Shown in pieces: positions 8,858 to 60,787 of a stretch of DNA of 64,000 bases (positions are counted from its first letter, which is position 1; each line of letters opens with the position of its first letter). The DNA is from Branchiostoma floridae (Eukaryota; Chordata; Leptocardii; Amphioxiformes; Branchiostomatidae). The stretch is taken from positions 12,270,427 to 12,334,426 of the forward strand of contig NC_049995.1 of assembly GCF_000003815.2 (NCBI RefSeq), written 5' to 3'. A model generated the notes under the pieces. That model was not told the origin of the DNA, made no database searches, and saw only the letters and a program-made list of their open reading frames with translations. The position numbers and the translations under genes were made by a program.

Positions 8858-8950
8858 CGTTCTGGAAATGAGTCGCCGGGTTCTGTCTCTTATTAGTGCG
8901 TTAGGCCACATCAAGTGAATTCTATGGAGAGTGCGTGATTTCGCCAGATG

Positions 8951-9627
8951 NNNNNNNNNNNNNNNNNNNNNNNNNNNNNNNNNNNNNNNNNNNNNNNNNN
9001 NNNNNNNNNNNNNNNNNNNNNNNNNNNNNNNNNNNNNNNNNNNNNNNNNNNNNNNNNNNNNNNNNNNNNNNNNNNNNNNNNNNNNNNNNNNNNNNNNNNN
9101 NNNNNNNNNNNNNNNNNNNNNNNNNNNNNNNNNNNNNNNNNNNNNNNNNNNNNNNNNNNNNNNNNNNNNNNNNNNNNNNNNNNNNNNNNNNNNNNNNNNN
9201 NNNNNNNNNNNNNNNNNNNNNNNNNNNNNNNNNNNNNNNNNNNNNNNNNNNNNNNNNNNNNNNNNNNNNNNNNNNNNNNNNNNNNNNNNNNNNNNNNNNN
9301 NNNNNNNNNNNNNNNNNNNNNNNNNNNNNNNNNNNNNNNNNNNNNNNNNNNNNNNNNNNNNNNNNNNNNNNNNNNNNNNNNNNNNNNNNNNNNNNNNNNN
9401 NNNNNNNNNNNNNNNNNNNNNNNNNNNNNNNNNNNNNNNNNNNNNNNNNNNNNNNNNNNNNNNNNNNNNNNNNNNNNNNNNNNNNNNNNNNNNNNNNNNN
9501 NNNNNNNNNNNNNNNNNNNNNNNNNNNNNNNNNNNNNNNNNNNNNNNNNNNNNNNNNNNNNNNNNNNNNNNNNNNNNNNNNNNNNNNNNNNNNNNNNNNN
9601 NNNNNNNNNNNNNNNNNNNNNNNNNNN
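8951..9627. other. Assembly gap, 677 N
   Basis: Sized gap that removes the upstream region of the minus-strand LRR gene and probably part of the repeat that starts at 9628. Confidence 0.98.
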
Positions 9628-10480
9628 ACTTTGGCTCCCGAACACTAGCCGACTCTTAGCCGACCCAAGTCGGCAGTAGTTCGGGAGTAGTCTGACCAGT
9701 TTAGGCCACGCCTATTTTTTTAGCGCCGAACATGTCCCGAACACCTCCCGACCAGTAAATGACTTACTCCCGACTGTGTCCCAAATGCTAACTAACCTAT
9801 CACCAACCATCCCGACCTCTAGCCGCAGACTGCCGAATCACTCCTGACTGATCCCCAACCGATTGCCGACCCTTTTTCGACTTGAAATAGACATAATCAG
9901 CGATTTTCAAAAGAGTGCTCATTTTCGTTTTTAATCAAGAATGTCCTTTGTTCTATTTGTAAACATCACCAAGAGATCAAATTTCGATCACATATAGCTC
10001 CAGCGCGGTATTTATGGGTCTTTTTGTTTTGGGCTGGATGTCGGTCGTGTGAAGTTCGGGAGTGATTCGTCTAAGTTCTGGCAATAGTCTTTTTGCATGC
10101 TTGGGAATGAGTTAGCAGAGATTTGTCTAAGGTCTTGGGGTGAATCATTGGTAAGTTGGAAACAAGCTGGGAGTAAATCAGCAATGTTTATGGCGTGGTT
10201 AAGAATTAATTTGACTGCTGATTTACTCCCGAACACCAACCGAACACTAGCCGACCGTGCCGAACACCAGCCGACCACCAACCGACCCATTCCAGAGTTG
10301 CCGTTCAGAGCCGAATGTTTTGAACATTTCAAAACATTCGGATGGAGCAGCCGAACACCAGCCGACTCAGCCGAACGCCAGCCGAACGCCAGCCGACTCA
10401 GCCGAACGCCAGCCGACTACAGCCGACTAGCTCCCGAATCACTCCTAAACCATAGTCGGGAGAGAGTCGGGAGCCAAATT
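9628..10480. mobile_element. CCGA/TCGG-rich element with terminal inverted repeats
   Basis: The left edge reads TTTGGCTCCCGAACA (from 9630) and the right edge is its near reverse complement (GTCGGGAGCCAAA, about 10466-10478). The interior is built from short motifs such as CCGAACACCAGCCGAC and CCGAATCACTCC in direct (left and right parts) and inverted (10010-10110) orientation. No transposase frame is visible, so it is a non-autonomous foldback or MITE-like element. The left end may extend into the gap, so I cannot verify a target-site duplication. Confidence 0.6.
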
Positions 10481-12174: not shown

Positions 12175-13844
12175 GCCGCGAACGGTTGAGCTTCTTGAAA
12201 TGCCTACTAAAAAGTTCAAAGACCCCATACCTTCGCCAAGCAATATCATTTTAATTGTAGAGACATACTTGCCGTTTATAATTTAGTGTTAACTCTTCTG
12301 TAAATATTCATCTTGTTCATATGACTTGAAGTAAAGTATTTTAATTTGGCCTATAAAAGGCCAATTATCAGCACTGTCGGTACAAACATGCAGTTCCTTT
12401 GAGCTTTACCAGAGGGCGTATCGTAGAATAGAAATATGGAACGTGCCCTCTGTTCTCGTTCGCGACGTGCCGCTATGCGCTACAGACTCATTACCGGCCG
12501 AAAAACATGAAAAAGGCTGTGTTTTTTTTGTAGTCCCTACCAGACTGACTAGCTGGCTGTTATAAGGAGAAAGAATTGTCAGGGGAGTTTTGCTACCAGA
12601 GGAGTTGGCCGGCAGGAGGGGAACATTAGCGTGGACTGACTCCCCTGGCCAATTTCCCGATTTTTTTTGCCGAATTCTATGATTCATTCACCCCCGTAGG
12701 AAGGCCTGGTAGTGGCTAGCTTTTTTTGTCAGCTTCTGTCAATCAAAGCAGGAAGGAAACGTGACTGTGCGTTATGTAATTCGTCCCTTACCTAACGTTA
12801 GTGTGTAAGACAGACAGTGAAAGTTGAACGGTCTCTTTTCGACCATCTTTCGACCAAGTTCTTCGATATCATTCCGACCAACCGATCCTTTTTACTTAGA
12901 CACGTTTACCGTGCCGAAAGTTTTTGCATAGTTATTTACAAAGCCCACGACTTCTATGACAACACCTGCCTGTATTTTATAAGGGACCGCCAGAATACCT
13001 TCGGTTGTATATGTTGAAGGCCGCGGGATTTCAACATGTCCAGAGAATTGAAGCGTATTTTTCACATGAAGATCTAGTCTGTAACATTTAACGTGCCAAG
13101 AGAAAATCGTTCAATCCTCAAAAAGTGGAGCAGTGTCCGAGGGAGCAACGGTCGTATTGCTGGCAGTGTCGTGCGTACGGTGAGCTACTTTCCTGTTGTA
13201 TGATACCGGTTCAAATCACTGTTGCCGTGGAACCCTTTTTGTTGAAAAATATTAGGGACGTTTTTGCATTGCCTTTCTTTAAATCGGACTTGAGTGACTA
13301 CAAGTGCCTGTATTAGAAGAGTGAACGGGGATACGATGTGAGGTCAACAGAGACATTGCCGTTTGGAAATCCTGTCCGCGTCGGTGTAACGGGGTATGGC
13401 GAGGTTAGGTTCGTCTCAGGACGTTTGGCTGTTTTGATGCAATTTTAAAAGCAGGCTGTGATAGAAAGAACTGCTGACAAGGATCCACGACAGTTTTTTT
13501 TTTCTAACAAGACATCCGACAGGCTTGTACGAATCGTGCACGACTGTATATACCAAGAATGCCTGCAGTTTGCGATCGCACTTCTTATGTGGCTGGGCTC
13601 TTACGTGTGAGTTTTTAAAATTTCCCAGTGTTAAGGTGATATTCTTTCAATCTTTCTCCGAATTGCAGGTTAGGGAAATAGCATTTTTTTTCAAATAAAT
13701 CTCCGTAAATTGTAGAGAGAATTCATTATTATGCAAACTAGCATAAACTCTTTTAATTTCGATATGTAAAACTCTTAATCTGATATAGAAAATTTACAAA
13801 TATTTTATCATAATTATTGGATGATATTCAATGTTTTGGCTCAG
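12175..13844 (+). other. Upstream region of the LRR-Ig gene
   Basis: No supportable coding exon. It holds the palindrome TTGGCC-TATAAAA-GGCCAA near 12346-12363, which also looks like a TATA box. The acceptor at 13843-13844 (TTTTGGCTCAG) implies at least one untranslated upstream exon somewhere in this region or in the gap. Confidence 0.4.
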
Positions 13845-13861
13845 TTGAAAGAAACACTAAG

Positions 13862-15490
13862 ATGAATTACGCAACATTATTATTAGTGTTAAGCTGCTTT
13901 GTATATCATGGTACAAGCCGTTGTTTAAACTTAGATTATTGTACCTGTCAAACTAAAGTAAGATGTGAAAGTACAGTCAACCATACTTATCATTCTATTC
14001 CACATGCTTTGCCACAAGACACAAAAGATCTGGAAATATTGTCACAAAATATTGAGAAAATTGCACCAAGCGATTTTTCTTACTTGCCAATCTTAACAAG
14101 ATTGATAATACGACAAAGCGGGCTGAGAAAACTGCTCCCAAAATGCTTCGAAAACCTGCCGAATGTCTACGACATTGACCTTTCAGAAAATGACATTAGC
14201 ATGGTCGTAAATGACACCTTTATTGGATTGGCAAAACTTCGTACCCTACGTTTAACAGATAACAAAATTAACTATGTTGCTGATCGTGCATTTTTTGGGC
14301 TTATTCATTTGACACATCTCTATCTCAACAACAACGACCTAAAACGTATTCCTTCTGCCATTGCGTCTCTTTCTGCCTTAAATTTTCTCATACTAGAGAG
14401 AAACCAAATAGAACTATTTCCCGAAGATCTAGAATTCATAAAACACGTTCGAATGTTGAACCTGATGTATAACCCTGTCAAATGCAACTGTAACCTTCGC
14501 CCGTTTCAACAGTATTTTTTGTTACAAAAGTTGGTCGGAATCTATAAGCGTTGGGGAATATTCTGTGAGAACGACAGAGGAAAAACAGTCACCATAGAAG
14601 TAGCACGTTTGAAAACCCTCCCATGCAATGCATACACCGTCCAAGTGTTTCCGAAGAACATTTCTGTAAGCGTAGGAAGTAACGCGTCTTTGTCGTGTAA
14701 GATTGTTAAGTGTAAGGAATTCGAGGATCTTCGCTTTACGTGGTTCCAACCAAACGGAAACGTCATCAAAGAAGATCATTCCTACGACTTGGTGGGAATT
14801 CAGGACAATGTTACTGATGGACAAAATTCATCCATGTTGATGACAACCCGTGGTGAAACATGTGCCTCTGTGCTATATCTCAAGCGAGTGTCGCTCAACG
14901 AGACAGGCACGTACACGTGTGCCGTCAGCGCTCCAAAAATCCACACGGTAAAGGCCAGTGCCCTATTAACTGTCTGGGCGCCAAAAGGCAATGCGACTAC
15001 CAATACTACCCTGGAAAATCTGCACGTAAACAATACGGCTACACCGGATACATTGTCAAACCGTAGCCGAACTGTTGTTTTGCAACAAAACTCTACACAA
15101 ACCAACGTGAATGTTCAAACAACACCTAAAGGGGTGAAAGACGACGGCAACCTAACTTTTATACTGCTGCCGGTGAAAGCGAATGAACAATTTGCTGACT
15201 ATATCCGCTTTGTAATGATTGTGGTTGCTATTTCTGTATCTGTGTCTTTATTAGTAGCTGGGTTTGCAACTCTCTTTAGCGGTCAATGGTCACGTAGAAG
15301 TCTTGAAGAAAATTTGAGGATGGCTAAGGTTGAAGGAGTCGTACTACAGATAGGAATACGTTTCTCGAGTGTCCTTGTGTTGAGTTCGATGTGCCACGGA
15401 CCAGCACACCACTACGAGAATGATGACCAGGAATCACTGGCACATAATGGCGGTGCCGACCACATCTACGAAAATGCTCATGAGATGTAG
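13862..15490 (+). CDS. LRR-Ig (LRRIG) type I receptor with two YEN motifs, single coding exon
   Basis: 542 aa from the ATG at 13862. I chose it because an acceptor ends at 13844 and a clean signal peptide follows (NYATLLLVLSCFVYHGTS); an in-frame ATG exists at 13817 upstream of that acceptor. Order: LRRNT cap (CLNLDYCTCQTKVRC); about six LRRs (LRTLRLTDNKINYV, LTHLYLNNNDLKRI); LRRCT (NPVKCNCNLRPFQQYF to LKTLPC); one C2-type Ig domain (SLSCKIV to GTYTCAVSAP); a Thr/Asn-rich glycosylatable stalk; TM (FVMIVVAISVSVSLLVAGF); and a ~65-residue tail with HHYEND and HIYENA. Y-x-N is a Grb2-type SH2 ligand when phosphorylated. The architecture matches the LRRIG family that is expanded in lancelets. Ligand unknown. 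AATAAA polyadenylation signals lie near 16206 and 16267. Confidence 0.92.
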   Translation: MNYATLLLVLSCFVYHGTSRCLNLDYCTCQTKVRCESTVNHTYHSIPHALPQDTKDLEILSQNIEKIAPSDFSYLPILTRLIIRQSGLRKLLPKCFENLPNVYDIDLSENDISMVVNDTFIGLAKLRTLRLTDNKINYVADRAFFGLIHLTHLYLNNNDLKRIPSAIASLSALNFLILERNQIELFPEDLEFIKHVRMLNLMYNPVKCNCNLRPFQQYFLLQKLVGIYKRWGIFCENDRGKTVTIEVARLKTLPCNAYTVQVFPKNISVSVGSNASLSCKIVKCKEFEDLRFTWFQPNGNVIKEDHSYDLVGIQDNVTDGQNSSMLMTTRGETCASVLYLKRVSLNETGTYTCAVSAPKIHTVKASALLTVWAPKGNATTNTTLENLHVNNTATPDTLSNRSRTVVLQQNSTQTNVNVQTTPKGVKDDGNLTFILLPVKANEQFADYIRFVMIVVAISVSVSLLVAGFATLFSGQWSRRSLEENLRMAKVEGVVLQIGIRFSSVLVLSSMCHGPAHHYENDDQESLAHNGGADHIYENAHEM

Positions 15491-31490: not shown

Positions 31491-34400
31491 TTAATTTGCA
31501 GTTGAACTATTCCCTCCTCGAAAGGACAAATAAAAGCCACCATCAACTGGGTTACACTTATAGTAGTTGTTAATATTTGAACATTCCTCAGTAAACCACA
31601 AGTGGCATTTTATGTTGAACCTGAAGTACTCGTATTTCCATTGCGTTCTTTGGTAATCCAGTCCCTGATAACGGAATGCGTTATACTCCATCGTTTGCGT
31701 TCGCCTGTGACCGATCGTGACGTCATCACATGCTGCAATTTTCAGTTTCCCCATTGCAGCCATGAAGAACTCTGAAAACAGAAAAAAAAACGCGCATCTT
31801 AACCAAAGCTTGAATATGTCACTTCTCCTCTACTCTATAAAATTGTTTTGATACTCCACAGTGGTAGAGGCATTTTATCCTCTTTTCAATTCATCACATT
31901 AGACTCTTTTTTAATTCAGAACATAATTTAGATACCCATCCGAAGTGGGAGGTACTGAATTAATTATGTTTGGTCAGCAGGTTTCCTTTTCTCTGTATCA
32001 GAACATCTTCGATGAGGCAAGAACAGTCTTACATGACGAAATTTGATTAAAAAAATCGATATAAGAGCACGTTGGGCAAAAAAACTTTCCCTGGCGTTTG
32101 AATGACGTCTGAACAGACTGCAATACTCCTTGATGACGTAAGATGGCGCTTGAGTATTGTGTTAATGACCTATTCCACTTTTCATGCGGCAATTGATGAC
32201 CACGGCCATATAGCTTACGTGTGTGTCCATGCCTCGAGTACTTGGGGTCGAACCCGACGGCACGAACGCTGTCCGTCCTCGCCATGAAGAAGTTGGTTAC
32301 TCTGGTGGAGAAATGGCAGCGAGGAAACCCGGGGACTGGTCCCCAGTGGTGATGGTCGTGGATAAGCAGACAGTCGCCATCTTTGTCACCTGGGACGAGC
32401 GTCATTTTCGTGTGCGCCACTTTTTTGAAACCTACCCTGCCAGAAACCTACACAAAATTACAAATCATGGAATATCTCAGAGAGAGTGCTAATCATTATT
32501 GTAATGTTTACGACGTGATGTGTTTTTAAGGTCACTTAAGTTTTATTTCTTTTATACATGTAAGAAACAAATAGACAAACAAACGATGTATAAGAAGAAC
32601 TTCCATTGCAAAGTGAACTCATGAAGAGTATGAAGAATAAAAATTGTCATGAATGGTCAGTAAACTGTCACAATGAACGTCTATAGAAGAATTTTTGTTT
32701 GACTTCCACATAAGGTCATAAATGTACTTATATTTCGGGAAATTTTAACATGGAATCCGCTTAGAATGGTATATGAGTAGGGTCTCACCGACAATCGTTG
32801 ACGTTGTACGGATTTTAATGACATTTTCTTGTTCGATTTAAATTTCCTTGAAGATATGAAAGTCAATGCCAATGGCCAAGACAGAAATGCATTAAGATAC
32901 ATATGCCGCAGACATGTACTTACCAAGTCCAAGTCTGTGTTATCCAGAACATTGACGAATCTTTCCAACTTTGTCCTATTTCCGAAAGCGAAGTCGTCAT
33001 CCACCCAAAGTAGGTAGGGCGTGTTCACCTGGGAAACGGCCAGGTTTCTTCCCGCGAACCAGCCCTGCAGGGGAGAATACGTCATCGCAAAGTTTCAGTG
33101 CTGCAGGGGATTTTGGGTAAGGTCAGAGATTAAGGTCCCTTAGAGATAAACTCAAATCGAATGTGGAACTCCGGAAACGTTGCAAAAAGAGTCTAGGCAA
33201 AGCATTGTTTACAAGTGAGAGACAATAGAAATCACTTTACACTTTGACCACAGACCATAATGCATCCTGATTGCACACGGTACTTGTAACAATAAGATGG
33301 GTCGTGGCATATCATATAGAAGATAAAAAAAGTAAAAAGTTTGGAATTTTAAAAACGTGCCAAGTATATTACCATAATTGTTATTGTTATTACTGTTGTA
33401 GAAATGATCATCATACTATCATTACAATCATTATCATTACTAAATTAATATTCTTGAGTTTGACTTAAGCAAAGTGTATGCAGAATACAAAATGCTTTCA
33501 ATTTGCTTTTATTGGCATTTCCCTTACGAAATGTAAACCAAAAACACCCATATCACAGTTTAATATTATTTTTGTACTTAGAAGAACAAACTACGATATA
33601 CCAGTTGAATATAACAATATGATATCTATGGTGTTTCACAAGAAAATGCCACCTACTATAGCATACGGCATAACAAAATGGTCGACATGCTCCGCCTGGA
33701 GGTTTTCTATTGGACGACTGTCGTCTGCGACGATGACCCGGATGTTGGGATAGAATGCCCGGATGGTGGCCAGCAGGGTTCGTATGGACGCATACCGGAG
33801 AAATGTTTTGGTGATAACGGTCACTTTGGATGCGATGTCTTCATCTGTTTCAGAGGGCAAAAAGTACATTTTCTTTAATGTTATGATACGTTTTTTGAAT
33901 AGTAATATCGTATAGGATACAAAATAAATTCGACAAACTTCGGAAATTCAAAACTAGAAATGTCTTGCACATGGGTCGATGGAAAGTCTGTTATATTATA
34001 TTGTGCACTCTTGTCAACGGTAAGTATTGTTATTCCTACAAATATCATCTATAAAAGTTCAACATAATTGCAAACCCTAGCCAAGCATTTTCAGGGTCAT
34101 TCCTACAAATATTTTTTACAAAAGTACATACATAATTACAAACGATCAATAACCACAGCAATACATGTGCAGCAGCATCATTCAGGTAACAAACTTGTCA
34201 GTGATTAATTTATTAGCCTAATGAATGATTCAACTAATGACGTTAAACGAACCTGGTCCGGGATCATACAGGAGTGAAACTCTAGAAGGTTGGATGCGAA
34301 CGGGAATGCTTGCTTCGTAGTTCAGGTACCTAAATTTAACTATCGATAGAAAGCGGTTACAGTAGACCAATAGCCGATCTAGCGGAAGTTTTCGATTCCT

Positions 34401-39681: not shown

Positions 39682-39800
39682 CAAACACACACGGCACGGT
39701 CCTGCTGCCCCAGTAGGCGCACCGTTGACATGCCAACGTACTGGTCTGCTCGGCACTTTGCACAGCTTGCATAACCGTTTTACGAGTGAAGTTGCATCAT

Positions 39801-40248
39801 GATATTGTCCGGATATGGACCATTCCCACACAGTAATGCTGGTATTCAATATCATGAGTGACTTTTTGTCATGATATTGTCCGGATATGGACCTATCCCA
39901 AACTGCACCGCTGGTGTGGAGTGTTTTGACTGAATTTTGTTCAAGATATTGTCCGGATATGGACCTATCCCAAACTGCACCGCTGGTGTGGAGTGTTTTG
40001 ACTGAACTTGTTCAGGATATTGTCCGGATATGGACCTATCCCAAACTGCACCGCTGGTGTGGAGTGTTTTGACTGAACTTTGTTCAAGATATTGTCCGGA
40101 TATGGACCTATCCCAAACTGCACCGCTGGTGTGGAGTGTTTTGACTGAACTTTGTTCAGGATATTGTCCGGATATGGACCTATCCCAAATTGCACCGCTG
40201 GTGTGGAGTGTTTTGAGTGAATTTTGTTCAAGATATTGTCCGGATATG
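39801..40248. repeat. 72-bp minisatellite, about six units
   Basis: GATATTGTCCGGATATGGAC starts at 39801 (degenerate unit), 39873, 39945, 40016, 40088, 40160 and 40232. Period is 72 bp with one 71-bp unit that breaks the otherwise open 24-residue minus-strand repeat frame. Each unit carries one TCCGGA. It lies inside the CACTA-like element. Confidence 0.95.
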
Positions 40249-45904: not shown

Positions 45905-46410
45905 CATGTCGAAGATGGGTTTTAGCCATCTTAATTCATCATGTGTTAAAGCCATCTTGTTCCATAATGTGTTCAAGCCATCTTGTTCCATAATGTGTTC
46001 TAGCTATCTTGTTTCATCATGTGTTCTAGCCATCTTGCTTCATCATGTGTTCTAGCTTTCCTATTTTATCATGTGTTCTACCTATCTTATTTCATTATGT
46101 GTTCTAGCTATTTTGTTTTATCATGTGTTCTAGCTATTTTGTTTCATCATGTGTTCTAGCTATCTTGTTTCATCATGTGTTCTAGCTATCTTGTTTCATC
46201 ATGTGTTCTAGATTTCTTGTTTCATCATGTGTTCTAGCTATCTTATTCCATCATGTGTTCTAGCTATCTTGTTTCATCATGTGTTCTACCTATCTTATTC
46301 CATCATGTGTTCTAGCTATCTTATTTCATCATGTGTTCTAGCTATCTTGTTTCATTATGTGTTCTAGCTATCTTATTTCATCATGTGTTCTAGCTATCTT
46401 ATTCCATCTA
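45905..46410. repeat. 26-bp minisatellite, about 19 units
   Basis: The unit contains CATCATGTGTTCTAGCTATC plus TTGTTT and is strictly contiguous, with no spacers. It lies just downstream of the cytokine gene's polyadenylation region. Confidence 0.95.
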
Positions 46411-47577: not shown

Positions 47578-50500
47578 TCACGACCGTCTCCCGGTGTGGG
47601 TGGGACTCCGTGTCGTTCTGCGGCAGCCATTGTTGTAGCGAAGTTTCATGAAGTCTCGTTGGACTCTCCTGAGAAAGTCCACGAAGTCTCGTATAATAAT
47701 GTGGTCTCGGAGACTGCGGTCGTACTCGGAAGGCGTTTCGGAGAGATGCACGGGCGCTGGTGTTGCGTTGTCGGTCTCGTCATTCTCAATGTTCATCAAG
47801 TGCATCTGTGGAAACATAACAACGAAGAACAGATAAGTATACGTGTAATTACACATCTTGTCATTAAAACTGAAGCAAAAAACTCAACACCCTTGCACTT
47901 TTCTTCTCACAAAATTGATACTAACTCTCTCGTAGTTAGTTTTGAAACTACTGCGCTTTCCTTTTTTCAGTGTCTCATGCTTAGCACCTTAAGTCCTTCA
48001 GAGCCTGTCAGACTTTTTAGTATTTTACCACACCTTTCCCACTTCCCACACCTTACATTGGAAGATATTATACAACAGTAGAGCCCGAGTCCACACCAAA
48101 GCAGGCCACAATATTACTGTTGTCCATACCTTTGTTTCTGTTTCTGTTTCATTATTGCATAACAACAGGCATGTGACATAGGACCATGTTGTATTCTGTG
48201 GATGTATATATGTACAAACTAAATTATATTGAAAGCTACTATTTCTAACAAAAACATTACTTCAATTAAATGAAAAATGTTTGGTTTCTATGTTATTTAT
48301 CTGATTAAATTTTACCAATTTTGCGTCCTCATCATAGGCGGCCATTTATTCGAAGAGTACTAGTTCAAACTTATTCTAGTTCCATTACTGAACTATACAT
48401 TACTTACCTACTTTAGATTGCATCCGATTAGATTTTATTCTATTATCTTGATATCATAGACGTTTCTGCCTTTTCAATTATATACTTTTTTCAGAATTAC
48501 ATTTTACTATTTCAGTTCTTTGTGATACAGTAAAGTTTCTTTTCTTTACCGGCTTGTTGAAAAAAAAAGTCTCACATCTAACTGGAGACCCAAAAATAAT
48601 CACTCATTAATAGAAGAAATGATCACTAATTATTAAGACAAATAAACATTGATTAGCAAGTTCCTTACCGTAGTACTAATGGCGCGCATGAGGCTTCTCG
48701 TGTGCGACAAGACGTTCTGTAGTTGCCTGGACAACTTCTCCTCCAGCCTCCCGGCTTCTCTCACCACAGCCTCGCCCTCGTCTACTTCCAGCACGTCTAA
48801 GAAAGGGTAGAGTAGGTGGAGGTTGTGGCGCATGGTGGTCAGACGTACATCACTCTGTAGAACAACGGGAGAAGAACACAAACATCATAAGTTATCTGTT
48901 CTTTAACTGTTATTGATGAAGAATTTATGAGTGCCATTTTGATGTGGACTCTCGCGAGATCACAGCTCGGCGAGAATTCTTGAGAGCTGGGAAAGTCAGT
49001 TTCCACACTTCAAGGACAAGGACACAACATTGGTGGACAAATATGCAGATCAACTTATTTCTGAATACACAGTCTTATTTGAAATCGCTCTCCTTTATTC
49101 TATCTCTTACCCATTTAATCTACAATATGTTTATTCCTGTTTTACGTTTATTTCTGTCATAAGATTGTTAGTCCTAACTGTGATGCTTTTAAATAGCTGA
49201 GATTTAAACGTCTTTCCGAAGATAGAGCGACCAGTGCTTTCTTTGGTATTGGTATCATTTAGCTAAGTACAGGTCGCGATTACCCTACGACCTTTTGCCC
49301 CTTTGTAAGACACCAGGAAACCGCTAGAGGGCATATTTTATAACAATATAATGATACAATGACAGACTTGCCAAGATTAACCATATTTGGTAAGATAATT
49401 CTAATTCCTACAACATCACCAAATTTGGGGATCTTTATAACTCATTGTCATCACTGGCGACTTGACCATATTTGGGATGCATGCTGATAGCATAATGACG
49501 TGACGTCAGAGAAGCATTATCTCAGGAGAGGATTGACTTTGTCGTGACGTCATGACACGCAGGGGGTAATCCAGCGGCCATTGTGATTGTGAGGAAAGTT
49601 GTCTGACATGCGTAATTATAATGACTGAGAATGCGATAATTACAAAAGTAAGTTTGTCTTTCTGCGTTATTTGTTTGCAAACAAGCTTAACAACATAATG
49701 CGACAATTTGAAACGCTTTTAGTTACATATGCATGGCTTAGGCGTGCCAGCGGCTTGGTCTGACACAACTGGCCTTCGCAAAACTGGTGTTTTACGCCCT
49801 AAAGACGGTAACCTGGTCCCCGGTCCTTCCCAGGGATTCGGGCTGGGATTCCTCGACAATCTAAGCTTTTCTTCCCGCCTGGCTATCTTATAATTAGCTC
49901 ACCCGGCTAATTTTTCCTGCATTTGTTCTATTGTTGCTGAAGTGACTTCTAGGGGGGCTGGGGCAAAGTTTCCTCGGGGGCATGTTGCGCCTGGTGCCGA
50001 ATGACTAGCGTATGCAGGCCCTGACAAGGGTCTGGATCCCAAGTTATCCCAAAATGCAGTCGTGCCAGTTGGCCAACAGATATAGATAGAAGTCGTAAAA
50101 ACTGTGACAAAAATAAAATGTTTTATTGGGGAGGGGGGCAAACTTTCAAGTCAAGATTTTCGGAATGACACGATATGACCATTAGGGTCGAACAAATAAT
50201 GCAAACTATGTGTCTAGACTAACATTTAGACAAGTATGATTCAACATACATAAGGGGGTGTGGCGCTAGAACAGAGAGGTAGAGCTAGAACAAAAGACAC
50301 ATGCCACTTTTATGACCTTAAGGTCAATTCTGCAATGCAGAGAATTGAAAGTATGCATTGAGAATAAGATATTTATAATCTTGAAAAAACATTGACGAAT
50401 TGCGATGAATGTTGGATGACATCTTACTGTCACCTTAAGAGAGATGTCAAGTCAATAAATAGGACCTAGTGGAAGTAATTACGAAGGTGTGGTCACATTG

Positions 50501-53500
50501 TCGGCGATCCAGAAATAAGCCCAGGGATTCCCCCCTCCCCAAGCCTGTAATTTTCCAAGCCATTACTAGTACTATAATATCTCTGTGTACGTACAAATTA
50601 CAACAAACCGCACCTACAACTCGTGACCATGACAAGTCTTAGTCTCCAAGCAGACGTGTCAGCTGGATGACAAAAGAGAAGAATTTGGCCAAATAGGGAC
50701 AAATAAGCTACTATAGGTTTTTAGGCAGTCTTTTGCAGTCTATCCAGCTATGTACCGGACGGTCAGTTCACTCATAGGCCAATTAAGTCCTACTAGACCA
50801 TATTCTCCTACTACTGTTCGACCTAAAAAGTTGGCCATATTCCCCTATCACTGTTCGACCAGGCCGGAGTATGGTAGAGACTAGACAAGTGTAGCTAATC
50901 TTTTTGCGAACACAAATGCCACAAATTTCAGCAAAACCCCTAGCTCTTAAACTGTCTATTATTAAGATAACGCTAGCTTTCTTTCTATTTTTTTTCTATA
51001 TTGGCCCAAAAATATTTTGACCTCATTGTTTGGCCTAACGTCTTAGCAGGTATGTTGCAATGTTACACGCAATTTTTAAGCATCAAGGCTTCACGGGATA
51101 TTATAATCAGGTAAGAAATGGCAGATATGACAAGAATGCAGGTGAAACATTTTCGGTATGTCAAAAGACAGGTGCGATCAGGCGACTTCCTGTACGTTTC
51201 CTTATATCTCAGCAAAGGTGTCGTCCTCGCCTTCGGGCACACCTGTGCTAAACCTTTTGACCGTCTTGGAATGTTGGATATGGGCCAAGGAAACTACCTG
51301 TAGCCATATACGCCGGAAGGACGACACAATGACATTTCCTTCAATAAGAACAATGCCCGTCACGTATATTATACAGCACAGTCGCACATCCTGACATCGC
51401 CGTGCGATATTGTTTACAGATCAACATAGCATGTACAAGCAGACATGTGCCGGCATAGTTTAACTCTCGTCTGTGTATTTACAGAAAACAAAAGCGGAGT
51501 TTACAAAAACAGGGACTGACATTGTTGTGACGCAAACCAGAGCCAGAAAACACTTCCCTTGTTTACAAGCTTTTATAACAGTTCACCTGACCGCAAAATA
51601 TAGACAAAACGATATGGTCTGCATACAAACACAACAACCATATCCCGTCTGCCCAGAAACTGACCATGGAATAACAAATATTCTTATGATACTAATATTC
51701 CAAGCAGCACAAAGAGCAACATAGTCCTGACTTGTGTAAATACATATTTTCTAAACACAACATTGTACCGTAAGCTTTAAGATTTGGATCAGTGGTAAAC
51801 AACAACACATGGGAATTCGGAAGTGTGTTCTCTGACATTTTGAAGGTTGGATGCACTTCATGACTATGTCTTATGATTTCTAAGTCGTCCTCCGTCCTTC
51901 CAAGACACGTACGATGACTCTTCCTCGACAAAAACATTTCTTACGGACATACGCAGGATCTGGATTAGGATCTCTGGCACTGTGGGTGTATACATGGTGA
52001 TAACACGCGTGCCATGTTTTTGTTTTGAACGGAAGAGAGAAACACCCCGGTATGACTCAAGTAGCCAAAACACGACCCCGAATATATGCTGGATGAAACG
52101 CCATGACCTGCGGTTTGACAGGGCAAGTCTGGATTTTTTAACGTACGGTAGTAAAAAAAATAGTAATGCTGGGAGGGGGGTACACACATTATTAAAGTCT
52201 TTGAAGCCAGCGAAGAGTGTAAATTTCAAAATTCGATTAACGAAATGATTGTTAAGAATGTTTCCCCACCCTTATGTTGGTTATATAAGGTCATACGTGA
52301 ACGTTTAGTACCTCACGGGGACTTTGAACTCTACAGTCAAATTTAACTGAACACTTCATCAAAGAACATCCTCAAACCCATCATCCGATATCATTATACA
52401 CGGCGTGGCAACACTTAACTGTGTCTCCGAAGTCCTCCTAGAATGAAATTATACCTTACGTAAGATGTAATAACAGCATTGCGTAACGTAGCCCCAATTT
52501 CATATGTATTGTCTGAAGGATGCCAACAATAACAATCTGAAGGCACACAGACAAATACTGGCGCATGCACACGTTTGTTTGAATGAACACACACACCATG
52601 AATGAGCTTCATTAATCTCAGGATATTTTCCTAGTTACAAACAAACACATCGCCAAGACTTCCTGAAGAAGTGAACACTAATAAAATAGGGCACAAAGTA
52701 ACTTTTTCTACATAAAAAGGCCTACCAGGTGTGAATAAAATGAAGACTGGTGCTTAAGTCGTTTTCTAAGGTCGCAGGTGCACAATCCTTTCAACTTTAA
52801 GTCTTTAGCTAGCCTTCTCTCCGACGTGAAATCCTATTTATAAAGTGCGTACAGGAAACGTTTAAATATAGGCCCCGTGGCTGATCCGTTCTAACGGTTC
52901 TTCTCGTGTTAGTACAGTGTAACGAAACTCCAGGTCGGTGACGTAGAGGGGGGATTTAGATAGCGGAGAGGATTACAAATTCTAGCCTGTCCGGAGTCAA
53001 ACACACCGACACAAACTTCGCGAAATTCCTCGGTAATTAACCTCTAAGACCACTACCTCCCACTCTAAAGCTAAAGCTAACTTCCAGGAGGAATAATCTA
53101 CAAACACCGGTGGACACACATCAAATAGATTGTTGGTTTTTGTCGGGCGGAAAGACGACCTGAGTGCCGGCGGTATAGAACAACCATTCACGGGCAAGGC
53201 GAGACCACGGCCGGAGGTGTAATAGTCTCCAAGCAGACATGTCAGCTGGATGACAACAGAGAAGAATTTGGCCAAACAGGATAAAAATACGTTGCCATGG
53301 GGTTTCAGTCAGGGTGTTTTTTGCAGTCTAGTTTCCAAGCAGACGTGTCAGCTGGATGACCAAAGAGAAGAACTTGGCCAAATAGGGAAAAAAATAAGTT
53401 GCCATGGGATCTCAGTCAGACTTTTACAGTCTATCCAGCTATCTCATCCGGCTAGACAATTCACTCCTAGGCCAACTAACTTCTACTACAAGGCTTTTTA

Positions 53501-56500
53501 TTTCTAACTTGGCCAAAGTCATCTATTACTACTCAGCCAGGCAGGAGTCTGGAAGAGACTAGGAGGTTGTGAAGTCTCACAATCGGCGAGACCAACCTGG
53601 GTGGCGGTCGGGCTAGCCCCTCTTGCACCCGCTACCGACCGGGCATTCCTTAGATCATTAGTTCCCGACAGTCGGAACCGGAACGTAACGTTAGATCCCT
53701 GCCCAAACCTCAGCTCTAGTGGCGGGGCATCACTCTCTAGACGCTGACATTTGTTCTCACCGGGCGGCTAAACGATTAACACGCAAACGGGGACATTGCG
53801 TACATGTGGGGCCGGACCGCGGATGTCGTCTTTGTGGGCGAGTCTTGGCATCCAGCCTACCGCTTCAATACAACTTTAGATTTACTAGTGGGAAATGCAC
53901 ACACAAATTAAAGTACCGATTGAGGCTTTTATATTCTATTGCAAAGATTTGTGTTGTTGAAAGCCTGATGATAATCGGAAGCAAACTATCCCCATCAGTA
54001 AATGTAAACAAATATTTCTGGAGGCGTTTTTTTTTTCAGTGACTGTCAGTTACTTTCGTCGTCTATTCCAGACACCAAATGTCCCTGCTTCTGTATTATA
54101 TAGTAAGAAAGACCCTTGTTTTCACGTGTAAATTTTTAACCATGACTCTATCAGATAACATGCTTGTTGGCCTTGACCGTGCCTTTTTTCTAAAGTAACC
54201 TGCTGACTAGGCCAGACTACGTCTAGACATGGAAACGACGTGAAAAAAAATATTTCAAAAACTCTCAGCAGACGAACCTTCTGTAAAAAATTAACTTCTC
54301 TTTTATGCTTATGTACAGCATTAGGAGGTAAGAATCAGCACTGCAATTTAGAATTTTGATTCATTAGAGTACTTTATTGCGAATATCTCTACATGTATCA
54401 TTGCTGTGCAACGCTCTGATTGACTTGTACTTAGCCTCCAAGTCAGACCTTTGGCTGGGTGACTGTTAGAAAATCGGGCCCAATAAAAATTGATACAGAA
54501 GCAGAAAACAGTACATGGTTAACCAATAAAGCATGCCCAAGAAGTCTGCTTGTTGTGCTCTGTTTGTTACGGCATAAATATACAATAAAGGTCTTTATCT
54601 GTCCAATACAATGAACAAGTGGCCAGGTGTGTTGTATGATTGTTTCACAAACGCTTTGATCTCTGACAGAGATAATTTTGCGGTAATTTTTTCAGGAAGC
54701 AATTTTGGTAATTTTGTTGACCATCAGATTTTGAAGATGCTGGTCTCTGTGCTGGTTATTTTAACCGTCTAGACTCTTCAATAACCACCTTTGGGACGTG
54801 TGGTAAGAAAGAGGCTTGTTGTTGGCGCGGATGTCTTGACTTAGGGCCTGTGTATTGGCAGGAAATGGCCAAATGATCGATTGTGACCATTCATTCTCAG
54901 TCCGGAAGGGGTCTTGAATTGGCCTTATCTACAATAGGAGGTGTATGTTGTACATAAAGCTGCCAGTGTGTACAAGTCAAGCTGCTAAGCGCTAAATCAG
55001 CTTCAATTGTGACATTGTCACTTCGCCAACCACTTGAATCGACTTCTGATGTTTTGCCGCGTGTTATCTAACAAGATTCTTACATCAAATCAATTACATG
55101 ACATACATAATTAAAGGTTTCGGTTACGCTTCAAACGCGGGAGCGGATTTGTTGTATTTTCGAAGCGTTAACGTGATTTGGGTTCGTCATAGAGGGCCTT
55201 TTGAGTCCACAGCTTGACAAGGGCACACCCGGCTTATGTGGTTCCCCTGTTGAACAAACAGTAGCTTGTGTATCCAGGGTTATACGAGATGACTCTAGCT
55301 CGCGGCCTTTTCTCGCTCTAGTAGAGTCCGCGCGTGTACGAGCGGTATTCACTCCGTTCGCCCTCAAGCCACGATTGTTCGCACACCATACATGACAAGG
55401 CTGGGACTTGTTGGAGTGCTACTAGCCACAATGATGTATAAACCCTACACACAAAACTAGAGATCATTCATGGTCACGACGGACAACTTACACGCTGCGC
55501 TCGCTCGTTGCTCTTTTCTGGAAGTCAGGCAAGCAGACTATCAAGGCTTTAGGTTATACCGTTAAGTAGATAGCGCTATACTAACCACAGGGGAACTTGC
55601 GTTTTTGTGTTATTAAGAAACCTGCGTACGTGTTAAAATATCACAATGCAACAGTTGCCTATCTCGCTATCTTATCTCATCTTCCTCGTTATCTTATTTT
55701 CTTCCTTTTGATTAGGCACGCGCTATGGATATGTCTTTTTTATCTTCCGACTTGTCTGTAGTCCGCCCCAGGTGCGTAAGTGTGGACAATAGATACACTG
55801 TGTACAATGAAGAGACGACATGCTAACCAGAAAAACGTGCCCTTTTCCTCGTCATGAGGAACTATAATTGGAACAGACGTACAAACCAAGAAGCTTGACT
55901 AGTTTCAAACAAAAGAGATATCCCGGGTCAGAAAACAATTATAGGTCAGTTACTACGTCATAGGATCCCCTTAAAAAAAGCAGAATAGCCTATTTATAGA
56001 CCTATTTATACCGATCTAGGATGCACGTCAAAAATGTACTCTTTTAAAGGACTGCTACGTAAAGTAGAAGTTGACACGAATACAAGTGGCGAACATGTTT
56101 GTAAACTGTCACATGCCTATCTGTATAATAGATATTACGTTGACGATGTAAACGCGTAATGTTTGTAATCTTATACTGTTGAAAACACTGTGATTATGAT
56201 GGACAGATGGCAGCATTTATATCAGGTGTTAAGTAACAACATAAAGGCCGCATATACACATGTACGTACGGTCAGAGAGTTGATTGATCTACTGCTTCAG
56301 TGACTATAGCCTGTAAATTCATACTTCCCAACTGTCCTACAAAGATCTAGACACGACTGCTAAGTACAGTTGACACTTTGATCCGAAAACGTCAAACAAC
56401 GATCTTGTCTTTCCTAACGACGGAGACAAACTTTCCCCAAGAATTTCCCGGTTTGAGTTTATTTTGTACATAGCCTCTTTCCTGACCGGGGCATAGCTTA

Positions 56501-59500
56501 CATACCTAGATTCCTTCCCTGCTATTTTTACTTCAGGTGAGACTTTAATCCCTTCAATTAAGAAGATTTGGAAATATTTCCTCCGATAGGTTACTATTTC
56601 TATATAACCCCCCGATTAAAATTCCGACAGAGAAAGGGCCGAGGTCGGAAGTAAATATAAACATCCTAATTACACAAACTCTTAATCATCTCTTAAGTCA
56701 GCACACCAGCGATAGATATGTTTATCTTCTAGAGAGAACACTTACCATGCTGTTAAGGGTGTAATGGATATGATTATAGTTACTGGGTGGTACGTAGAGA
56801 GTAGCCTCTAGCTCCACCAGGCCTTCCTACGGGGATCGTAGAATTCGGCAAAAAATCGGTCCACGCTTAGGTTTATGTTTCCCCTCCGGCCGACCAACTC
56901 CTCTGGTAGCAAAACTGCCCTGGTTACCTGGTAAATTACTCTCCCTATAATAGCTAGCGTAGCCAGTCTGATAGAGGCTAGAGAGAGCGTTAACGTTACT
57001 TACCGTTAAACTTTCCCAGTCGGTGTAAGACGTGCTAAGTTCAGGAAGCCCTCTGAGAGTCAGGTCACGGTTGGAATACTCCGGGTTGCCGAACCTTAGC
57101 TCATTCTGCAAAGAAAACAAAATTAAAGATATTATCATATTAATAAGCAACAAAAGAGCCTGTGTTTCAAATCTCTCACTGTCAGTAACTGATTGGGACT
57201 CTTCTTGTTGTGGCATAGCAAGTGGAAGGCTGAAAAAATGTTTTATTTACGCCAAACAACTTCGCATTTATTTGAGTCTAAAATCATACATCTACCTGTC
57301 CTACACTATATATATAGTAATAGTCTTGTACTATCTCAATATAAGTGTATGCCACTATGTAAAGGATGGGATATTTCCACAAGAGGTGGTTGGGGGTTAT
57401 TGGTATTTCCATTGTACACCCTTAGCTACAAGGAAACAGTAATAGCTAACGTATAAGAAGCTACGCATCTTACGATTAATTTCTTAGATTCACGTTTACA
57501 TTTCTACTTCCTTTCTTTCTTCAATCTTTGTGTACACTTTGATTTACAAATGAAATGTTTCAAAAGAGAGAATCCTAGACTAATATTTCCGATATGCAAA
57601 TCAGAAAACATTTTCATATTTCCGTTGTCTTCTCGCCAGTCTATACTCCTTGCCTTATATGGTCATACGACAAAATCAATACACGATCAATATTCAGATC
57701 TCGTAGGACGAGACCACTTTTAAGGGAGGGACCCCGGATACATGTTGTCAATTTCAAGGCGTGCTTTGGATCTTTAATCTAGCATATCCTTCTATTTTTG
57801 CGTATTTTGGTGCGGCAAAAAATGTAACATTGGTGGGTTGGGTACAGTAGCTTAATGAGGGATGACGAAATAAAAGAATGGAATAGCGTGTGACCTCCAT
57901 ATTCAAAGTAGACCCTCCCTGTCTCGCGTTTACTCTATGACCCCGCGCGTTGGGCCAGACGTAAAGTGGGCTGAGATTAAATTTTTTGAGCCTCCGCAGA
58001 TTTTCAGTTGGCGGGAAAAACATGAATAATTCACGCACCCCGTAACCCCCCGCGACGCCCTCAACGAAATTTGTCTGGCCGGCGGTGTAGCAGGGGTGGG
58101 AAAAAGCTACATACCAGAATGTGGGCGTCTTTTTGAAGGACTTTCTCTGGACTTTACGTGCCCGCGAGACTCCAGGTACTTGTATGAGGATTCGTGTTCC
58201 AACACGGGATAAGCCTTTACTAATTGAAAGCTCTTAGGCAATTTGAGAGCACCAGCTCAGCTTGGCGACTGTACTCCTTTTGAACTTACCGACATGATTA
58301 CTCAAACGTATGGGTGTATATGTAATAATATTGACAGAAAGATACGACACATTTGGTATCATATTTCCTTTTCTATAGATATGGTGGTATTTTGCTGCAC
58401 TTGTACAATGAGTAGATTCTGAAATTACAAGTGATTTGGAATTTGACATTTTCTTGCGTCACATTTGACATCTATTAAACTTGTGCAAATTGCTGATTGA
58501 CGTGACAGTGTTTAACAAATAGAGCAGACAACAGGAGTTCAGATAATTCACTGTTTACGTAGGATTTGACCCTTTAAACACGACAGTTCATGAAAACTAT
58601 ATCAGTGATTGCACTAAATGTTTGTGTATCGATTTGCTTTGGTAGATTATCAAATCAGGGCGTGAATTTCGGTTCCTATATTTGTGATCACCGTATCACA
58701 GATATGGTGGTAGGAATTTGAGCAGATAGAACCCAGAGCTACAAGGCAAACCACAAGTAGGAATGGCCTGGTGGTCTTTTCGTGGAATTGGTACCACGCC
58801 GGTACCGAATTTAGCTCCACAGATGGCTAGGGCTTGTCATTGCTTGTTAAAACAACGCCGCTAGATGCAAAACAGGGCACACAAGCACGCAATGGTTGGG
58901 ACCCCGTCACACACACACACAAAACAGCTCCATGAAAATACCCCATTATTCTAAACTGTCACAAGCTCTTACCGCATGGCAAGCGGCGGCGGAAGTGATT
59001 AGCTTAACACCTTAAAACGTTTGACATCTCGTCCGAAAAGTTTGAAAGCGAGCCAGGAGCCGGCTTTGTGTTGCGAGAACGGTTCGCGGGTTTCGTTTGG
59101 GAAATTTCTGTTTACCTATGGGGTCATGACTGAGGGGAATTCTAGCTCTCTCGCCCGACGACGTCAAACAAAATAACAAGGGCGGGTCAACAAGCCGGCG
59201 AGGTCAACAGACTACAAGTCCAACAGCTCGAAGAGCATAGCTACAACCACGTCAAACAGTAGCGTAGTTATGTAGTTAAACACAGGCTACATGTGCACAC
59301 ATGTTACTGTCGTTAGCCCACCCATACACAGTACCAACACGTGCGAGCGGTAAGAAAGGAAATTTAAGACAGAACTTGCATTCCATTCCTTCTACCACAA
59401 GTCTAAAGCACCCGATAATAGCCCCAACTGAACAGGAAATACCGAATAAAAATTTTCTGGAAATAGAAATCTGTTTGTACTTACGAAGTGTTTAAAGAAT

Positions 59501-60612
59501 TTTTCTGTGGTGAGAAAAAGTCTGTGGACGATGCGGACGTTCTCGTCTAGTTGCTCGCAGGCCGTTCTTCTTTCTGTTGTCGCTGATCTTGTAGTTGTGG
59601 GAGGGATTGGGCTGGAGTCTCCTACCGCGGCCATGGTTAGCAGTAGCAGCAAGCAGAACGCGACGAGCTCCGAGGTGTCCTCTTGACAATCTAAAGTGGT
59701 GAAACAGAGCGGTACGTTTAGTGGGAGGTTGTCGGAGCAGTGCGCGCTGCGGCAAGGGCGATCTGCTCCAGTAATTATATCTCTCCCCTCGCTCTCTACG
59801 GGTAGGCTATTTTAAGGGCTGTTTCCAAGCGCATTTATGCATGCCTCGGCGCAGCGCCTGGCTACGATAAGCGACTCCGCTGGGACGGGTAGCTAGTCAA
59901 ACAACTCTGTCAGTCCGGCCGGCTCGTTCGTCAAGTGGAGGCATGCGGGGCATGACTGAATGACCCCGGGGACTGCACGCCTGCTCGGCCGCGTGGCGCG
60001 TAACATGCCGCCGAACAGGTTTCTGTACAACACGTGCATCCCCTTACTCTACCCGCCTGCCAAAAATCACAACATTTCCTGCGATGTTTTACACAAACAA
60101 TGCGCCAAAAAAGCGATATTTTACACAAACGTTGCGCTAAAAGGTGACAATTCTACCATAGGGAGCGACTACGGCCGCCTAGCCGACCGAGAGGCGGAGG
60201 TAAAGGCGTTCGGCTCGCCTCGACAATGTTCGGGAAATGTTCGTAATAAAATGGGCACGTTGCAACATGTTGTGTGTTCTGGTAGAAATGATCACTACAA
60301 CGCTAACTGTACTAAAACATCATTATAAACAAGATCACAGAATAGTTTTAACCTCAGAAATGTCTAAATCATTGTAGATATATAAAATCTCTATCGGATA
60401 CGAGTAAAATCACGAGTAAGCCAAAATACATGAAAATCGTAAAAATCATCTTAAATCGTAAAAATCAGCAAGGACATGAAAAATTCTCATCCTAAAGATA
60501 CAAATAAATCTTATTAGAGCAGTTAAGAAAGTAGAGAAAGATTAAGAAAAATCGCGTAACGTTAACATGTGGAAAAGAGCATGTAGTACTTACGGAATGT
60601 ACACTTGGCCAT
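47578..60612 (-). CDS. Long-chain class I helical cytokine, IL-6/CNTF/CLCF1-like, five exons
   Basis: Exons in transcript order: 60612-60594, 59690-59485, 57105-57004, 48854-48669, 47805-47578. All are GT-AG, intron phases 1,0,0,0; 246 aa. Exon 1 gives only MAKCTF plus one base. Exon 2 gives a hydrophobic signal core (LVAFCLLLLLTMAAVG, residues 15-30), a Pro/Thr linker and helix A (CEQLDENVRIVHRLFLTTEK). Exon 3 is the AB loop, ending WESLT; exon 4 starts SDVRL and gives helices B and C; exon 5 has a CD loop with sequon N184-A-T and helix D (IIRDFVDFLRRVQRDFMKLR). The junction W-x-x-L-T-x-x-x-R-L matches the CNTF helix-B start, and helix D resembles the CLCF1/CNTF tail. Five exons with phases 1-0-0-0 are typical of IL-6, G-CSF, GH and EPO genes. 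Probable secreted ligand for a gp130-type receptor and JAK/STAT signalling. Family placement is from motifs and gene structure, not a database search. Confidence 0.75.
48882..56700 (-). other. Large intron of the cytokine-like gene
   Basis: 8 kb without a supportable canonical exon. Repeats related to TCCAAGCAGACGTGTCAGCT and GAGAAGAATTTGGCCAAATA occur at 50643-50800, 53228-53300 and 53333-53470. Confidence 0.5.
50643..53580 (+). repeat. Three-copy dispersed repeat
   Basis: TCCAAGCAGACGTGTCAGCT, AGAGAAGAATTTGGCCAAAT and CAGTCTATCCAGCTAT recur in order at 50643-50800, 53228-53325 and 53333-53470. All are plus-oriented; the last two are in tandem. No coding content recognised. Confidence 0.8.
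56746..56826 (-). CDS. Candidate 81-nt cassette exon of the cytokine-like gene
   Basis: Minus strand: acceptor after GATTTTTTGCCGAATTCTAC-GATCCCCGTAG, 27 codons (EGLVELEATLYVPPSNYNHI then HYTLNSM) and donor GTAAGT, phase 0 at both ends. It would insert in frame between exons 3 and 4. Insertion would separate the WESLT and SDVRL halves of the helix-B motif, so I leave it out of the main model. It may be an alternative exon or a chance pair of sites. Confidence 0.4.
57106..59484 (-). other. Intron of the cytokine-like gene
   Basis: No further exon recognised. A long minus-strand frame at 57754-58038 has no splice context. Confidence 0.5.
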
Positions 60613-60723: not shown

Positions 60724-60787
60724 CTTTTATACCCCCAAGAATCGGAAAATCTAGTCATTTCTTTGTGATGACATCATCCTGACATCA
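60724..60787 (-). promoter_or_regulatory. Promoter of the cytokine-like gene: TATA box and two CRE-like sites
   Basis: On the minus strand GGGGG is followed by TATAAAAG (60731-60724), about 110 bp upstream of the ATG, which predicts a start site near 60700. Two TGATGTCA motifs (60776-60769 and 60787-60780) lie 38-56 bp upstream of the TATA box and resemble ATF/CREB half-palindromes. An ATG at 60701 in another frame sits at or just upstream of the predicted start site. Confidence 0.6.

Follow-up and report, generated by a model that had tools for sequence, protein, structure and literature searches.

A lancelet gene family of candidate long-chain class I cytokines with sequence links to CLCF1 and CNTF

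The window gene and its family

We analysed a stretch of 64,000 nucleotides (nt) from Branchiostoma floridae (C17:12270427-12334426; genome assembly 513 Mb in 431 contigs), called the window throughout. On its minus strand, at window positions 47578-60612, lies gene A, a gene of five coding exons that we obtained by direct reading and assembly of the letters and that we discuss here as a candidate secreted cytokine. Its features, in window coordinates, are as follows.

60724..60731, minus strand: putative TATA box TATAAAAG, 119 nt 5' of the ATG, from a pattern scan
60594..60612, minus strand: coding exon 1, 19 nt, phase 1 at its end, encoding MAKCTF-
59485..59690, minus strand: exon 2, 206 nt; putative signal peptide (hydrophobic run VAFCLLLLLTMAAVG), N-terminal segment SSPIPP, helix A (residues 51-76)
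57004..57105, minus strand: exon 3, 102 nt; AB loop with RFGNPEYS and DWESLT
48669..48854, minus strand: exon 4, 186 nt; helix B (residues 108-131) and helix C (137-170)
47578..47805, minus strand: exon 5, 228 nt including the stop; CD loop, helix D (residues 198-226, EYDRSLRDHIIIRDFVDFLRRVQRDFMKL), basic C-terminal tail

All four introns begin with GT and end with AG, their phases are 1-0-0-0, and the predicted product has 246 amino acids (aa). This is the five-exon model, with its 19-nt first exon, that a preliminary description of the DNA had proposed, and its coordinates are exact. The G+C content at third codon positions (GC3) of gene A is 0.64 versus a G+C content of 0.41 for the window, and no AATAAA or ATTAAA polyadenylation signal is present within 577 nt 3' of the stop. 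Immediately 3' of the gene is a 26-bp minisatellite of 19 copies (window 45915-46408). Judged by eye, the product has a hydrophobic leader in exon 2, that is, within the first exons, and a core at residues ~50-227, in line with the core of ~160-200 aa of a secreted long-chain class I cytokine. Helix A, the AB loop, helices B and C, and helix D lie on exons 2 to 5 in that order, and this exon plan, with phases 1-0-0-0, is common to the IL-6, G-CSF, GH and EPO genes. Among the four helices proposed in the preliminary description, A and C are clearly amphipathic (the observed moment is reached by 27 and 1 of 5000 shuffles, respectively) and D weakly so (485 of 5000).

Gene A belongs to a lancelet family. 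A tblastn search of the genome with its product returned four of its own exons and three weak places (E 0.024, 0.31 and 2.6), each with a helix-D-like end of the form ...E(Y/F)xRxIRDxxVLR(D/E)F... close to a stop. Exons built outward from these first places gave genes B, C and D, and searches with D, C, G and F gave the rest, for a modelled family of eight genes, A to H. The seven genes outside the window, each an exon set, are on C4, C9, C12 and C15.

C4:33.80 Mb, minus strand: gene B
C4:30.97 Mb, plus strand: gene C
C15:10.35 Mb (L010, C15:10349000-10358000), minus strand: gene D
C4:33.81 Mb (L023, 3852-6457): gene E, the probable GHl gene discussed below
C4:30.99 Mb: gene F, with one extra 63-nt exon
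C9:7.95 Mb: gene G
C12:10.07 Mb (L055): gene H

Exons 2 to 5 join in phase 0 in all eight genes, and the short exon 1, ending in phase 1, could be placed in four (A, B, C and F); the models of E, G and H begin at an ATG in exon 2, and exon 2 of D opens in phase 1. In tandem with D is a partial copy, D2, whose exons 4 and 5 are nearly identical to those of D; within the stretch read (C15:10349000-10358000), its exon 2 was not found and only the end of its exon 3 was. At C18:12307257-12309076, three tblastn matches stand in order to gene F at 47-49% identity, and by these matches we count the place as a further family member. In exon 2 of gene H (L055, 5812-6498), degenerate Ala/Pro-rich repeats of the AAAPVARLQDP type extend for a long way ahead of the helix-A segment, which is unusual for a cytokine.

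Gene A is 20-25% identical to the six other genes aligned with it, and synonymous sites between it and other members are saturated or nearly so. Genes B, C and E form a closer group (59-63% alike; B and E are 61% identical and adjacent on C4 in head-to-head orientation), with pairwise dN/dS of 0.18, 0.24 and 0.41 at dS values of 0.78-1.64 that are partly saturated; these three genes are under purifying selection. An AB-loop motif recurs as RFGNPEYS in gene A, RFGDPDYS in the C15 paralogue and HFGDPHYD in the C12 paralogue, and has a counterpart in CLCF1, PFNEPDFN. Gene A is more than a chance find, as its plan of exons 2 to 5 recurs in seven other genes. The idea that its open frames line up by chance or that it is a pseudogene, to which the missing polyadenylation signal would lend some weight, is hardly credible: it is contradicted by the existence of the family, and the GC3 value and the purifying selection among B, C and E also speak against it.

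Nearest vertebrate cytokines

To place the family among known proteins we used Pfam models, single-sequence searches and family profiles. In a Pfam scan of seven genes (A to G, with H left out), the best family for the window protein is IL11 (PF07400; E 2.7e-4), which aligns residues 47-226 with model positions 4-166 of 170, nearly the full length. Gene G matches the same model at E 0.041, ranked after two bacterial families. Genes B and C match PRF (E 0.053 and 0.011; 13.4 and 15.7 bits for a cut-off of 22), a family that we take to include CLCF1 and CTF as well; provisional CLCF1 and CTF2 sequences do match it. NCBIfam gave no match for four family genes. With phmmer against the PDB, the window protein finds CLCF1 in fourth place (E 0.34, residues 78-227).

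Profiles of the family bring out the same relatives. Searched against 177,635 distinct PDB sequences, a profile of A, B, C and D has eight matches with E up to 10: CLCF1 is first (E 3.6e-4), followed by CNTF (0.084 and 0.12), and the remainder are RIG-I (0.51), GH (0.57, 0.60 and 1.2, not significant) and a nudix protein (0.63). A seven-gene profile has seven matches, namely CLCF1 (4.3e-4), TTC5 (0.23 and 1.2), GH (0.32, 0.50 and 1.8) and a designed coiled coil (2.2). As a negative control, the reversed four-gene profile has only two PDB matches, the better at E 1.3 (a FACT subunit), and no cytokine. Members of the IL-6 superfamily are, by family profile, the nearest solved relatives. We also scored an eight-gene profile on provisional sequences of 15 class I cytokines from vertebrates, together with reversed and shuffled decoys. 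Mouse CTF2 scores 52.7 bits (4e-13), CLCF1 21.3 (1.7e-3) and CNTF 17.2 (0.028), followed by CTF1 (10.2), GH1 (9.8), IL11 (8.8), PRL (8.6) and IL6 (6.7), while LIF, OSM, EPO, TPO, CSF3, LEP and IL12A remain at decoy level (at most 3.4 bits; best decoy 3.3). The CTF2 sequence is provisional, and we treat its top score as a lead only.

The likeness can be traced along the protein. The alignments of CLCF1 and of CTF2 (provisional sequence) begin at the AB loop and reach the end of helix D. In the window protein the AB loop contains F-x-x-P-[DE]-[YF], as in CLCF1, and the border of the AB loop and helix B contains W-x-x-L-T-x-x-x-R-L, as in CNTF; this last match had been pointed out in the preliminary description and is real, since we checked the CNTF stretch in PDB letters. 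There are differences as well. Gene A has five coding exons, whereas the CNTF and CLCF1 genes have fewer. For IL-11, the Pfam match contrasts with the score of human IL11 (provisional sequence) on the four-gene profile, 0.5 bits versus 7.1 for the best decoy. Human GH shares the exon phases, and its helices A to C align weakly with the profiles (E 0.3-1.8), but the match ends before helix D and is far weaker than that of CLCF1. Taken together, the Pfam IL11 match and the CLCF1 and CNTF profile matches support the reading of the preliminary description, a secreted helical cytokine of the long-chain class I type.

The published growth hormone-like gene and a class I receptor

One member of this family appears to be in the literature already. 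Passages of a 2022 review (PMC9010856) describe amphioxus GHl as a cloned 208-aa "type-I helical cytokine" with a binding partner, the soluble class I receptor GHRl, and mention beyond GHl "several genes related to type-I helical cytokines" in the amphioxus genome. According to parts of this review and of PMC9049855, GHl is found in Hatschek's pit, interacts with GHR and GHRl and has GH-like action in fish; the latter also reports that GHl in Hatschek's pit is raised by salinity. We fitted the GHl qPCR primers P19 and P20, given in a section of PMC5376476, to seven loci. On gene E, P19 fits in exon 4 (LFLDEVLL) with 6 mismatches in 25 and P20 in exon 5 (PTDVT) with 5 in 23, both in frame and in the expected order. 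The six other loci give 8-10 and 6-10 mismatches, so that E is the best fit of the seven. Scanned on both strands as a control, the window yields 8 and 6 mismatches, so that position and frame, and not just the mismatch counts, carry this evidence. Gene E, taken from the first in-frame ATG in exon 2, encodes 209 aa, versus 208 published for GHl. Because the primers fit in frame and order and the lengths agree, GHl, which was cloned from B. japonicum like the other genes of PMC5376476, is very probably the orthologue of gene E. GHl would then belong to the same lancelet family as gene A; E is 25% identical to A and sits in the B/C/E group.

The genome also contains a class I receptor, which we found from a weak match to a gp130 fragment (a provisional query sequence) at C15:19043743.

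C15:19.040-19.052 Mb (L064, C15:19039000-19048900; L066, C15:19048801-19053800), minus strand: receptor exons with a WSEFS cytokine-receptor module

The gp130 fragment has 46 matches in the genome, most of which are probably ordinary fibronectin domains. Two weaker ones were examined: that at C15:19043743 led to the receptor locus, and that at C9:9045024 was read as frames only. No receptor-like WSXWS was found in eight loci cut out (L056-L063) with a pattern that would miss forms such as WSEFS; L063 has one chance match on the other strand. Among the best 60 of 121 matches of the joined 158 aa of the WSEFS module are the prolactin receptor (PRLR; 5.8e-22), CRLF1 (3.4e-16), the leptin receptor (8.8e-16), gp130 (3.2e-13) and GHR (1.6e-6), and some receptor phosphatase fibronectin domains, which are weaker (from 4.1e-7). 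In Pfam the module matches fn3 and CRLF2-like_D2, both above cut-off. IL6Ra-bind (PF09240) has no match in the lancelet genome or in 14 control genomes, and as these controls are also blank the null is not informative.

P16, a published primer for a GH/PRL-like binding protein, fits the D2 exon of this receptor with 2 mismatches in 24; the next best fit has 10 or more in the two receptor loci, and 9 in the window. No site for P15 turned up in the stretches examined. The WSEFS receptor very probably corresponds to GHRl of the literature. Past a masked stretch in the 3' direction, the same strand carries another fibronectin pair (YWGEYGS); a transmembrane segment and AHLWPKIPGPENFL come after it, and then a tail in which (N/D)Y(V/T)Q(V/S) occurs four times. 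Compared with Box 1 of gp130, which we assume to read HIWPNVPDP, AHLWPKIPGPENFL looks like a Box 1. The WSEFS module and these 3' exons may belong to a single gene or to two receptors in tandem. In PMC9010856 the existence of a full-length GHRl is raised as a question, and the transmembrane, Box-1-like and tyrosine-repeat exons are perhaps its missing signalling part.

Placement of the family and its meaning

Are these genes the amphioxus counterpart of GH and PRL, as published for GHl, with the likeness to CLCF1 and CNTF a shared ancient feature? The site, receptor interaction and fish activity of GHl argue for it, as do the alignment of human GH with helices A to C and the receptor's best match, PRLR. 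In a maximum-likelihood tree of eight amphioxus and 15 provisional vertebrate rows, the best topology also puts all eight amphioxus genes beside GH/PRL, with weak support (74/87). In the profiles, however, CLCF1 is better than GH by ~700 to 1600 times in E-value, and its match and that of CTF2 pass through helix D, where GH has none. Clade tests, run after the tree was seen, marginally reject a B,C,E clade held with GH and PRL (p 0.045) and reject gene E alone with them (p 2e-4), the latter mostly because E is close to B and C. We consider a GH/PRL counterpart improbable.

A different view is that the family descends from an ancestor of all long-chain cytokines, before the split of GH and IL-6, so that neither label fits and the multiplication in lancelets came later. 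The tree is in keeping with this, as a single amphioxus clade (p 0.42) and amphioxus with the CNTF group (p 0.29) are both not rejected and the best tree places the genes with GH/PRL; the exon plan, being common to IL-6, G-CSF, GH and EPO genes, would fit too. What such an ancestry does not readily account for is that the signal is specific to CLCF1 and CNTF (and provisional CTF2), with seven other cytokines at decoy level. We regard it as rather unlikely, and as a stronger candidate than a GH/PRL counterpart.

We propose, with a probability of about 0.8, that gene A encodes a secreted long-chain class I four-helix cytokine, one of at least eight modelled amphioxus genes, and that this protein most likely works like vertebrate CLCF1/CTF2/CNTF and GH-type ligands. 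The class I assignment is strong and orthology with IL-6/CNTF likely, both as judged from sequence, and "IL-6/CNTF type" is the best single label, with membership unproven. Several results weigh against these assignments. The IL11 score of the window protein, 21.0 bits, is below the cut-off of 25.8; no scanned gene reaches the curated cut-off of the IL6, IL11, LIF_OSM, CNTF or PRF models; and three of the seven scanned genes (D, E and F) match no cytokine family in Pfam. In phmmer a V-ATPase subunit and two symerythrin entries outrank CLCF1 for the window protein, and gene B finds no cytokine in the PDB. CNTF is not among the PDB matches of the seven-gene profile, and a profile of B, C and E alone finds nothing there. 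FXXK, the LIFR-binding motif at the start of helix D in CNTF, LIF, CLCF1 and OSM, is replaced by YDRS in the window gene and by YARS, FARS and YLRH in B, C and D. Helix B is not amphipathic in the simple moment test (2860 of 5000 shuffles reach the observed value), the WSEFS receptor is closer to PRLR than to gp130, and the tree, with 3 of 20 inner branches starred, does not place the family. Of the CNTF/CLCF1/IL-6 typing in the preliminary description, what stands is that CLCF1, CNTF and IL-11 are nearest by sequence with a clean reversed control; FXXK, the tree and the receptor do not point to the gp130 use that the description inferred. The lack of K at the FXXK place, together with a basic C-terminal extension not seen in the six other aligned genes, would also suit a secreted non-agonist, that is, a receptor antagonist or decoy ligand. 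There is no specific sign of one receptor site being lost, none of the helix A, C or D segments is missing, and we hold this to be very improbable.

As a cytokine, the window protein would lose its signal peptide and be secreted as a predicted helical bundle. One or more class I receptors would engage this bundle through their paired fibronectin-like cytokine-receptor domains. Two receptor chains brought together would then activate JAKs at the Box 1 motif and, through them, STATs. We infer this fold, receptor use and JAK/STAT output, and likewise descent from the IL-6/CNTF branch and not from that of GH. Tentatively, and at somewhat less than even odds, we suggest that the family is a surviving pre-vertebrate branch of CNTF/CLCF1/CTF (IL-6) ligands, with at least nine genes on six contigs, and that the amphioxus "growth hormone" of the literature is a member of it and not a true GH.

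Elsewhere the window holds the following.

13814-15490, plus strand: intron-poor leucine-rich-repeat gene that also carries an Ig domain (Pfam LRR_8 and I-set)
7622-9655, minus strand: intron-poor leucine-rich-repeat gene, with a masked stretch inside the frame
32681-33094, minus strand: family-2 glycosyltransferase exon (Pfam Glycos_transf_2); minus-strand frames beside it resemble further exons of this gene
39797-40248: 6.3 tandem copies (91% match) of a 72-bp unit; the minus strand of the array is an open frame that encodes a repeating SVKTLHTSGAVWDRSISGQY peptide

The preliminary description was not aware of a well-characterised CNTF/IL-6 family ligand outside vertebrates. The case for gene A as the first such ligand is weakened, because GHl is very probably a paralogue of gene A and the passages of the review cited above already mention amphioxus helical cytokines. 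Among the papers listed by searches of the open-licence literature, none names an amphioxus IL-6/CNTF-type ligand in its title or the opening of its abstract, and the parts consulted of PMC7717901, PMC12409108, PMC7308720 and PMC5787515 contain nothing on such ligands. As far as this search reached, the likeness to CLCF1/CNTF, the size and shared exon plan of the family and the place of GHl inside it seem to be new. On the receptor side, receptors of the gp130/Domeless kind are old, and a gp130-like receptor in the sea squirt is described in PMC1963337.

For the origin of the class I cytokines, a lancelet family makes the ligand side testable in an invertebrate chordate. A 2026 survey reports IL6 only in vertebrates at BLAST cut-offs of E 1e-5 and 30% identity (PMC13203501); a lancelet ligand family that can be traced by sequence to CLCF1/CNTF suggests that relatives escape thresholds of this kind. 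It also calls into question the name of GHl as a GH, and claims on the origin of the GH axis rest on that label. If the family is indeed a branch of IL-6-type ligands, and if the receptor with the Box-1-like motif binds it, lancelets would possess both ligand and receptor of a complete IL-6-type system, at odds with the view that ligands of the IL-6 family are confined to vertebrates.

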